64,000 bases of DNA from positions 38,759 to 102,758 of the forward strand of contig CABYPD010000003.1 of NCBI GenBank assembly GCA_902520835.1. Direction: 5' to 3'. The translations under genes were made by a program, and so were the position numbers. Shown here one piece after another: positions 5,446-12,239 of this stretch; within the stretch, counting starts at the first letter, position 1, and every line of letters starts with the position of its first letter. Below the pieces are notes generated by a model. It was not told the origin of the DNA. It saw only the letters and a program-made list of their open reading frames with translations, and ran no database searches. This DNA comes from an uncultured Bacteroidota bacterium. Its GTDB lineage: Bacteria; Bacteroidota; Bacteroidia; Flavobacteriales; Flavobacteriaceae.

Positions 5446-6207
5446 TTATCTCAAACCCTCAATGAATTTTTTAGTTGCTTTTATTCCACTGCTCTTTAAA
5501 CAGTTGATGTAGGCTGATCCAATAATTACTCCATCACTATTATCACTTGCAACTCTACATGTTTCTTGATTACTAATTCCAAAGCCAACTAATAATGGAG
5601 CTTTCAAATTCATTTTATTAATTCTTTTAAAATAATTTATAGTTTCATCTCCAAATATTTTTTGTGCACCAGTAGTACTAAAACTACTTACCATATAAAT
5701 AAAAGCTTCAGAAACTTCATCAATAAATCGGATTCTTTCTTCAGATGTTTGAGGTGTAATTAAGAACATATTATGTAAATTATATTTTTTAAAAATACTT
5801 TGATACTGATCATGATAAATATCAACTGGTAAATCAGGAATAATCAATCCATCAATTTGACATTCTTTACATTTTAAACAAAACTCTTCAATTCCAAATT
5901 GGATCATGGGATTTAAATATCCCATTATTATTACAGGCAATTCAGTTATTGATCTTAGATCTTTTATTTGATCAAATAAAATATTTGTATTCATACCATT
6001 TGATAATGCTATTGTTGAGCTTTCTTGAATAGTGGGTCCATCAGCTAATGGATCACTAAATGGTAAACCAATTTCAATCATATCAACACCTGATTTGTCA
6101 AGTTCTTTGATAATAGACATTGTGTCCTGTAGTTTTGGGAAACCTGCAGTAAAGTAAATTGATAAAATATTTTTTTTGTTTATAAATGTCTCATTAATTC
6201 TATTCAT
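5446..6207 (-). CDS. trpA: tryptophan synthase alpha chain
   Basis: MIEIGLPFSDPLADGPTIQ, LLVGFGISN; last gene of the trp operon. Confidence 0.97.
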   Translation of the reverse strand: MNRINETFINKKNILSIYFTAGFPKLQDTMSIIKELDKSGVDMIEIGLPFSDPLADGPTIQESSTIALSNGMNTNILFDQIKDLRSITELPVIIMGYLNPMIQFGIEEFCLKCKECQIDGLIIPDLPVDIYHDQYQSIFKKYNLHNMFLITPQTSEERIRFIDEVSEAFIYMVSSFSTTGAQKIFGDETINYFKRINKMNLKAPLLVGFGISNQETCRVASDNSDGVIIGSAYINCLKSSGIKATKKFIEGLR

Positions 6208-9770: not shown

Positions 9771-10330
9771 GTATTAATCCAATTTTTTAACAGTATTTTA
9801 CCGTGTTCAGTTAGAATAGATTCAGGATGAAATTGAACACCCCACAATTTAAATTTTTTATGTTTATATGCCATTATATTTTCATCATAATCATGAGCTA
9901 AAAGTTCAAATTCATCATTTAACTCTTTAACTACCCAAGAATGGTATCTGCCTACTTTGAGAGTCTTGGGAATTGATGTAAAAAGAACATCATCCTTCAC
10001 AACCTTAATTTCAGTTGAAATTCCATGAAAAACATCATCTAAGTTCAATAAATCACAGCCTAATGTTTCTGCTATTGCTTGATGTCCGAGGCATACTCCC
10101 AAAAAATTTTTTGTTTTATAATAATTAGAGATGATTGACTTTAATAATCCAGCTTCATCAGGAATACCTGGTCCTGGTGATAATAAAATTTTGTCAAAAT
10201 TGTTAACATGATTAATATCAATCATATCATTTCTAAATACTTCAACTTCACAATCTAAATCTTCTAGATAGTGTACGAGATTATAAGTAAATGAGTCGTA
10301 ATTATCAATAACTAAAATTTTATTTTTCAT
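9767..10330 (-). CDS. trpG: anthranilate synthase component II (glutamine amidotransferase)
   Basis: NKILVIDNYDSFTYNLVHYLE, FLGVCLGHQAIAE, GVQFHPESI. Confidence 0.96.
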   Translation of the reverse strand: MKNKILVIDNYDSFTYNLVHYLEDLDCEVEVFRNDMIDINHVNNFDKILLSPGPGIPDEAGLLKSIISNYYKTKNFLGVCLGHQAIAETLGCDLLNLDDVFHGISTEIKVVKDDVLFTSIPKTLKVGRYHSWVVKELNDEFELLAHDYDENIMAYKHKKFKLWGVQFHPESILTEHGKILLKNWINT

Positions 10331-11721
10331 TTTAATTCTGCTTTTTCAATTGATGTCATTAATGCTCCAACTTTATTGTATACTTCATTTAATTCATTTT
10401 TTGGAACAGATTTCGAGACTACTCCAGCACCAGCTTGAAAATACAATGATTGGTTTTTTGATAAAAATGATCTTATAATAATTGCATGGTTAAAATTCCC
10501 CTCAATACCAATCATTCCAATTGCTCCACCATAGAATTGTCTTTTTGATGTCTCATAGTGATTAATTAATTCCATTGCTTTGTACTTAGGTGCTCCTGTT
10601 AAAGTTCCAGCTGGAAATGTATTACCAATTATTTCTTTAGATTTTGATTTAAGAGTTCCTGTAACCTTTGATACTAAATGAATTACATGAGAGTAAAACT
10701 GAATTTCTCTATCTTTTTCCACAACAACATCTTTACATGATCTGCTTAAATCATTTCTTGCAAGATCCACAAGCATCATGTGTTCACTGTTTTCTTTGTC
10801 ATCCTTTAATAATTCCTTAGCTTTTTCTCTATCAAAATTATCATCTCCTGTTCTCTTAAATGTTCCTGCAATAGGATGAATTTCTGCCTTTTGATTATTA
10901 ATAACTAATTGTGCTTCTGGCGAACTTCCAAATATTTTAAATTTACCATAGTCAAAATAAAATAGATATGGTGAGGGATTTATAGATCTTAAATTTCTGT
11001 AAACATTAAAATCATCGCCTTGAAAGGGTTGTACAAATTTTCTTGACAAAACTATTTGAAATACATCCCCCCGCATGCAATGAGAGATACCATTTTTAGC
11101 CAGTTTTATAAATTCTTCATCAGTTAGATTTGATTTAATATCTCCAATTTTTTTAAAATTGAAATTAGAAATAGTTTTATTGAATATTAATTTTTCAATT
11201 TTATTTATTTCATCATTATCATTTGAAAAAGAAATAATTGTTGAATGATTATTAAAAGTATTTACAACAATAATATTTTCATATAAACAGTATAGTATTT
11301 CAGGAATACTGTCTCCATAATTTTCATTTTGAAGTTTAATATTTTCGAAATAGTTGATTGAATCATAACTCATATAACCGTAAATTCCTTTACTCTGGAA
11401 TTTATCATTTTTAAATTCAGTGGAAAATTCAAAAGAACCAATGAAATCATTAAGTTTTTCTAAAACCGATTCATTATCATTAATTTCTTCTGTGATAGAC
11501 TCTTTATCAGGATATTTTGTTCTAATATGATTATTTTCTACCAGAAATTCTGCTATTGGTTTGAAGCATATATAAGCGTAACTATTATCTTTTGAGCTGT
11601 AATCACTGCTTTCTAATAATATAGAATTTGCATAGTTGTCTCTTATCTTTAAATAAATACTTACAGGCGTTAATGTATCTGTAATAACTTCTTTTCTATT
11701 TTCATTTAATTTAAACTTCAT
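10327..11721 (-). CDS. trpE: anthranilate synthase component I; start revised from 11751 to ATG at 11721
   Basis: Chorismate-binding domain (IFGSSPEAQLV, PIAGTFKRTG, GAGVVSKSVPKNE). The track's MSLRQAFFYY prefix is encoded by the terminator hairpin upstream; MKFKLNENRK is the likely N-terminus. Confidence 0.93.
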   Translation of the reverse strand: MKFKLNENRKEVITDTLTPVSIYLKIRDNYANSILLESSDYSSKDNSYAYICFKPIAEFLVENNHIRTKYPDKESITEEINDNESVLEKLNDFIGSFEFSTEFKNDKFQSKGIYGYMSYDSINYFENIKLQNENYGDSIPEILYCLYENIIVVNTFNNHSTIISFSNDNDEINKIEKLIFNKTISNFNFKKIGDIKSNLTDEEFIKLAKNGISHCMRGDVFQIVLSRKFVQPFQGDDFNVYRNLRSINPSPYLFYFDYGKFKIFGSSPEAQLVINNQKAEIHPIAGTFKRTGDDNFDREKAKELLKDDKENSEHMMLVDLARNDLSRSCKDVVVEKDREIQFYSHVIHLVSKVTGTLKSKSKEIIGNTFPAGTLTGAPKYKAMELINHYETSKRQFYGGAIGMIGIEGNFNHAIIIRSFLSKNQSLYFQAGAGVVSKSVPKNELNEVYNKVGALMTSIEKAELK

Positions 11722-11724
11722 ATA

Positions 11725-11756
11725 ATAAAAAAAGGCTTGTCGCAATGACAAGCCTT
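11725..11756 (-). terminator. Intrinsic terminator of the trp attenuator
   Basis: Minus strand AAGGCTTGTC-ATTGC-GACAAGCCTT followed by a T tract; 10-bp perfect stem ending a few nt before the trpE ATG. Confidence 0.88.
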
Positions 11757-11777
11757 AAATATTTTAAAATTTTAAAC

Positions 11778-11837
11778 TTATAGCGACAGGAGCTTAAACT
11801 TTAATAAGTGCCACCAAAATTTAAAACGATTTTTCAT
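11778..11837 (-). CDS. trpL: trp operon leader peptide MKNRFKFWWHLLKFKLLSL (19 aa)
   Basis: ATG AAA AAT CGT TTT AAA TTT TGG TGG CAC TTA TTA AAG TTT AAG CTC CTG TCG CTA TAA; tandem Trp codons upstream of a terminator before trpE. Below the track's length cutoff. Confidence 0.85.
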   Translation of the reverse strand: MKNRFKFWWHLLKFKLLSL

Positions 11838-11841
11838 ATCT

Positions 11842-11849
11842 CAAATATA
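11842..11849 (-). promoter_or_regulatory. Candidate Bacteroidota -7 box (TATATTTG) for the trp operon
   Basis: TAnnTTTG match 4 nt upstream of the leader-peptide ATG. Confidence 0.6.
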
Positions 11850-11918
11850 GAAACTTTTTTTAAAAAAAAACCACTGAAAAAAGTTTTAATACTTAATTTA
11901 ACAGACTTAAATTTTTAA

Positions 11919-12239
11919 ATGATGAATTTGAATATCCAAGATTGGAAAACAAACAAAGAGAAAAACTCAAAAAATATATGTTTAGACGTTAGAACTTCTG
12001 AGGAATTTAATGAAGGATATATTGATAATTCTATTAATATAGATTTTTATAAATCAATGGAATTTATGAAGTTTTTAGAAAAAAGTTCAAAGGATGAGAA
12101 TTATTATGTTTATTGTAGATCAGGTAAAAGAAGTTATGCAGCATGTGAGATAATGAAAGAATTTGGTTTTAATAATGTCTTCAATCTTGATGGTGGTTTT
12201 TTAAAATGGGTTGAATGTGGTTTTGAAGTAAATGAATAG
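11919..12239 (+). CDS. rhodanese-like domain protein
   Basis: CLDVRTSEEFNEGYIDNSINIDF, YVYCRSGKRSYAACEIM. Confidence 0.92.
   Translation: MMNLNIQDWKTNKEKNSKNICLDVRTSEEFNEGYIDNSINIDFYKSMEFMKFLEKSSKDENYYVYCRSGKRSYAACEIMKEFGFNNVFNLDGGFLKWVECGFEVNE

Follow-up and report, generated by a model that had tools for sequence, protein, structure and literature searches.

The complete tryptophan operon on the minus strand of the window, which is the whole 64,000-nucleotide stretch of DNA analysed here, raises the question of how its expression is controlled, and what role is played by the short Trp-rich open reading frame and the hairpin that precede its first gene. The genes have the order trpEGDCFBA and extend to position 5446. 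The identities of trpE, trpG, trpD and trpC are confirmed by Pfam, and trpF, trpB and trpA, which follow trpC, are assigned from the ORF translations and the gene order. The window belongs to a 1.4-Mb assembly that is 84% complete. The nearest named TrpE record, which is 97% identical, comes from Cryomorphaceae bacterium MED-G14, and the next matches are further uncultured flavobacteria, mainly marine. The 81-nt gap at 11838-11918 is the trp promoter region, and it is common to a divergent gene for a rhodanese domain protein (11919-12239, plus strand), whose start lies 82 nt upstream of the leader.

The element in front of trpE is very probably a ribosome-mediated transcription attenuator of the trp operon, and a divergent member of the Bacteroid-trp (RF01692) type of leader. 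A short ORF with tandem Trp codons precedes a trp gene, and an intrinsic terminator stands between this ORF and trpE. The parts are the following.

11842-11849, minus strand: promoter -7 box TATATTTG (TAnnTTTG, Bacteroidota sigma-A type), read from the sequence with the consensus from F. psychrophilum.
11837, minus strand: predicted +1 at the A of the leader ATG (leaderless), placed 12 nt from the box start by spacing.
11778-11837, minus strand: leader ORF trpL, MKNRFKFWWHLLKFKLLSL, read from the sequence (19 codons, ATG at 11837, TAA at 11780-11778).
11811-11816, minus strand: tandem Trp codons TGGTGG (codons 8-9), the putative stalling site, from sequence and conservation.
11732-11756, minus strand: intrinsic terminator AAGGCUUGUC-AUUGC-GACAAGCCUU, from sequence and search, with its U tract at 11731-11727.
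10327-11721, minus strand: trpE, anthranilate synthase component I, the first controlled gene (Pfam PF00425/PF04715, ATG at 11721).

The box, the 4-nt gap, the 19-codon ORF with TGG TGG at codons 8-9, the TAA, the 10-bp hairpin and the T tract before trpE had been described in the first-pass annotation, and all these details and coordinates are right. The same annotation had proposed ribosome-mediated trp attenuation and had set the conservation of the Trp codons in relatives beforehand as its test. For this, 87 trpE loci were gathered, and the 84 with at least 170 nt of upstream sequence, which come from Flavobacteriaceae and two more distant Bacteroidota, were used. A short ORF bearing TGGTGG, often as WWW, is found before trpE in all 84 loci, and a terminator with a U tract follows the leader ORF in 83 of them when the same search is used throughout, so the claim is not refuted and, together with the covarying antiterminator described below, is strongly supported. 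Shuffling the trpE upstream regions gives such an ORF in 21 of 8300 cases (0.25%); the real regions have it within 350 nt in 82 of 83 cases, and their reverse strands in none. The single locus missed by the terminator search (L062) has a similar hairpin that is visible with one base changed.

In DNA the hairpin of the window reads AAGGCTTGTC-ATTGC-GACAAGCCTT, with 10 perfect pairs followed by TTTTTATTAT, and it is separated from the leader stop by a 21-nt AT-rich spacer. Two terminator-like sites, which are this single hairpin on both strands, are found in the 2-kb region against 0.4 expected. The hairpin of the relatives is nearly always a variant of AAGGCTTGTC/GACAAGCCTT, even where TrpE identity is 53-60%. 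The conserved AAGGCTTGTC hairpin was also considered as a terminator motif used throughout the genome, and this is rejected, as the exact hairpin has one copy in the 1.4-Mb assembly and there is no clear excess in the window.

The position of the hairpin bears on a reading in which Trp-dependent stalling takes place but mainly controls trpE translation and not transcription termination. In the window the hairpin ends only 10 nt from the trpE ATG, as this reading would have it, but the U tract is present in 83 of the 84 loci, and in many relatives the hairpin lies 20-60 nt before the trpE match, too far to mask the start, which makes this outcome very unlikely. Outside this range, the leader and terminator of one relative (L080) lie 271 nt upstream of trpE, compared with the usual 10-60 nt.

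Transcription attenuation further involves an antiterminator that excludes the terminator, and such a structure is found computationally: a ribosome that sits on the Trp codons leaves it free to form, and one that has reached the stop codon prevents it. It is built from the following segments, which are listed with the hairpin that competes with them.

11769-11827, minus strand: 1:2 hairpin of the ribosome-free RNA, folded at -16.3 kcal/mol as long as the terminator 3' arm has not been transcribed.
11783-11788, minus strand: region 2, the 5' strand UGUCGC of the outer antiterminator helix, adjoining the leader stop, complementary to 11743-11738, conserved and covarying.
11774-11781, minus strand: 5' strand AUAAGUUU of the inner antiterminator helix, which contains the UAA stop and pairs with 11755-11748 in the stalled-ribosome folding.
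11738-11743, minus strand: 3' strand GCGACA of the outer antiterminator helix, made up of the terminator loop together with the first part of its 3' arm, from complementarity, covariation and folding.

Within the 1:2 hairpin, RNA folding pairs UGGUGGCA (11816-11809) with UGUCGCUA (11788-11781), so that in the ribosome-free RNA of the window it is the Trp codons that sequester the stop region. In the antiterminator, the partner of AUAAGUUU is AGGCUUGU of the terminator 5' arm, and the whole is one long hairpin that uses the 5' arm, the loop and the start of the 3' arm of the terminator. It excludes both the terminator and the hairpin between Trp codons and stop region. When the leaders are read in register, the partners in the outer helix covary: TCGTGA/TCACGA, TGTCGC/GCGACA, TCGCGA/TCGCGA, GTCGAT/ATCGAC and TTGTCGCAAT/ATTGCGACAA. 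The mean complementarity is 15.2, versus 9.6 (standard deviation of the mean 0.19) with shuffled upstream sequence.

The switch was followed by folding each leader with the ribosome-covered RNA omitted and with the 3' arm limited to its first 6 nt, and the results were averaged over 83 loci. The antiterminator probability, for upstream pairing of the terminator loop and 3' arm, is 0.91 with the ribosome on the last Trp codon, 0.12 with no ribosome and 0.03 with the ribosome at the stop. It is 0.14 when the spacer is shuffled and 0.59 when the terminator is swapped for one of another loop class, the own terminator giving the higher value in 74 of the 83 loci; by the value with swapped terminators, some of the ability to pair is common to the relatives in general. 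The stalled-state result is robust for ribosome edges from +6 to +18 nt past the Trp codon, and in the window the probability stays at 0.96-1.00 over edges from +6 to +21. With 6 nt of the 3' arm present, the ribosome-free RNA of the window is in a mixed state (antiterminator probability 0.66), and at 8 nt the terminator dominates the minimum-energy fold, so that in this model the no-translation state of the window is not cleanly off until more of the 3' arm is made.

Folding of the finished leader did not give the antiterminator because the terminator and the 1:2 hairpin dominate that fold; the structure emerged only when the RNA under the stalled ribosome was omitted and the 3' arm was shortened. 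Unsupervised column covariation on a plain MAFFT alignment recovers two outer-helix pairs only, the signal being blurred by the alignment, which shifts the helix by 1-2 columns. Spacer shuffles and terminator swaps were used in place of it.

In the cell, these structures would act in three states. RNA polymerase would begin on the A of the leader ATG or on a neighbouring base, and the RNA would thus be leaderless and receive the ribosome directly at its 5' end. If charged tRNA-Trp runs short, this ribosome would stall at codons 8-9 and cover the Trp codons, which would leave the stop-codon region (UGUCGC and AUAAGUUU) free to pair with the 5' arm, the loop and the start of the 3' arm of the terminator; with the antiterminator formed there would be no terminator and trpEGDCFBA would be read. 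When Trp is plentiful, the ribosome would reach the leader stop codon and cover the stop region, so that the terminator would form just before trpE. Without translation, the Trp codons would pair with the stop region and the terminator would also form.

The E. coli trpL leader works by three exclusive pairings (1:2, 2:3 and 3:4), in which the Trp codons belong to region 1 and a ribosome at the stop codon blocks region 2. The window leader has the same 1:2, 2:3, 3:4 logic, although there is no sequence relation between the two. It differs in that its Trp codons pair with the stop region, in that the antiterminator includes the terminator loop and the start of the 3' arm, and in that the leader is predicted to have no 5' UTR with a Shine-Dalgarno site. 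TrpR, moreover, was not found in the window's assembly.

This last point also concerns the possibility that a TRAP-like Trp-binding protein or a repressor acts on the leader and that the ORF is secondary, which is extremely unlikely: nothing in its favour was found, genes for neither TRAP (PF02081) nor TrpR (PF01371) were found in the assembly, which is 84% complete, and no TRAP-type array of GAG/UAG repeats was noticed when the leader was read by eye. A further reading, with practically negligible probability, takes the hairpin as constitutive or as the end of an adjacent transcription unit, and the ORF rich in Trp as a chance occurrence. In its favour, the hairpin is terminator-like on both strands and short AT-rich ORFs are common. 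But the retention of the Trp codons in every one of the 84 loci already refutes this reading, a covarying antiterminator is present, and the rhodanese gene is divergent, with no unit converging on the hairpin.

Returning to the attenuator, its predicted start depends on the promoter box. The TAnnTTTG box occupies positions -12 to -5 in F. psychrophilum, as its authors report from 5'-end RNA-seq (PMC9723704). In the window four nucleotides, AGAT, separate the box from the leader ATG, so that the +1 would fall on the A of this codon, and the box spacing predicts that the leader mRNA is probably leaderless. According to the same authors, leaderless mRNAs make up only 5.5% of the total in F. psychrophilum (PMC9723704). 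A sigma-70 promoter scan of the region gave weak matches only, as expected for the phylum. The other genes of the window have few boxes, none at 12 nt from the start and three at 14, which are too few for a firm control.

Nearly all relatives have a TAnnTTTG-type box before the leader ORF. The spacing from box to start is exactly 12 nt in 29 of the 84 loci, several of them with a GTG start, and 13 nt in 6; in the remaining loci it is mostly 17-29 nt, the spacing also given for larger-genome relatives. The class with 12-13 nt makes up 29 of the 32 rows of one strongly supported clade of the TrpE tree, which includes the window, and the whole tree requires 7 changes of this character, versus 27 with shuffled labels. 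Four loci of one clade (L010, L012, L013 and L050) have the box TATATTCG or TATATTAG and a leader that starts with GTG, at a spacing of 12 nt; judging from these sequences, the box and the start codon drift there and the spacing does not.

Leaderless leaders of this kind are known elsewhere, with the start measured, in trpL of Sinorhizobium meliloti (PMC7298713) and in trpL1 of Streptomyces lividans (PMC8079986). In both the RNA begins at the start codon of the Trp-rich peptide, as is predicted for the window, but the phyla and sequences are unrelated to the window leader. The trpL peptide and RNA of S. meliloti also act in trans (PMC7298713).

The F. psychrophilum study reports strong indications of attenuation by leader peptides before operons for amino-acid biosynthesis; the elements named in its main text are those of pheA and hisG, and trp is not among them (PMC9723704). 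The genome of the window has candidate leaders before both pheA and hisG. A putative His attenuator (G000:C24, minus strand) lies about 120 nt upstream of hisG, with the His-rich ORF MKNNLHIHHSILINLRREM and the terminator CCCGTTTG-AGAAAT-CAAACGGG followed by a T run before hisG. A putative Phe/Tyr attenuator (G000:C1, minus strand) lies about 125 nt upstream of pheA, which codes for prephenate dehydratase, with the ORF MNKIYNKKFYFYFYYSS, the terminator AGTCCTGAA/TTTCAGGACT followed by a T run before pheA, and the box TATTTTTG 14 nt before the start. No Rfam family matched the hisG and pheA leaders. These His and Phe/Tyr leader ORFs with terminators suggest that attenuation is a common device in this genome. 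Just before ilvD (G000:C20) there is a terminator-like hairpin, CTCCATTTATATGGAG, with a T run, and no clear leader ORF with runs of Ile, Val or Leu was found upstream of this gene.

The RNA family to which the trp leader is closest is RF01692, the "Bacteroidete tryptophan peptide leader RNA", a motif from Weinberg et al. 2010 that was described as a probable cis-regulatory RNA of Bacteroidetes (PMC2864571). The window leader scores 26.9 bits against a curated cut-off of 49 (genome E about 0.5), and it is the best-scoring place for this model in the whole assembly. The model exceeds its cut-off in 96 of 151 genomes of the taxonomic family, and in the listed cases that were compared with trpE coordinates the match is directly upstream of trpE. 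The other Rfam families scored at the leader do not come near their cut-offs and would be biologically implausible in this place. The leader shares with RF01692 the phylum, the place upstream of trpE, the tandem Trp codons or UGG repeats, and the terminator 5' arm GGCUUGUC; it differs by its score below the cut-off and by its predicted leaderless ORF. It is read as a homologue of RF01692 on grounds other than the score, and is not a curated member. In the printed alignment the model ends at GGCUUGUC, which is unpaired, and therefore holds neither the terminator nor the antiterminator. To the first-pass annotation this adds the antiterminator, the kinship with RF01692 and what the 4-nt spacing predicts, a leader mRNA that is probably leaderless.

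The finding is a real one and for the most part ordinary: this kind of RNA is already known, and what is new is the composite antiterminator and the predicted leaderless leader ORF. The leader of the window is evidence that ribosome-mediated trp control of the classical type has been kept in small, AT-rich genomes of marine flavobacteria which the Rfam model misses, and the Bacteroid-trp family gains a complete, testable three-state structure. The results also point to a clade with an apparently leaderless sensing ORF, in a phylum where initiation does not depend on Shine-Dalgarno sites. Taken together, it seems reasonably likely that the trp leader became and stayed leaderless in one flavobacterial clade whose members are largely marine and mostly uncultured, with ATG or GTG on the predicted first base of the RNA, so that attenuation there would need 5'-end ribosome loading without a 5' UTR, while larger-genome relatives would keep a short one, and that the Bacteroid-trp family has as its common and so far unmodelled core the composite antiterminator, made with the terminator loop and 3' arm.
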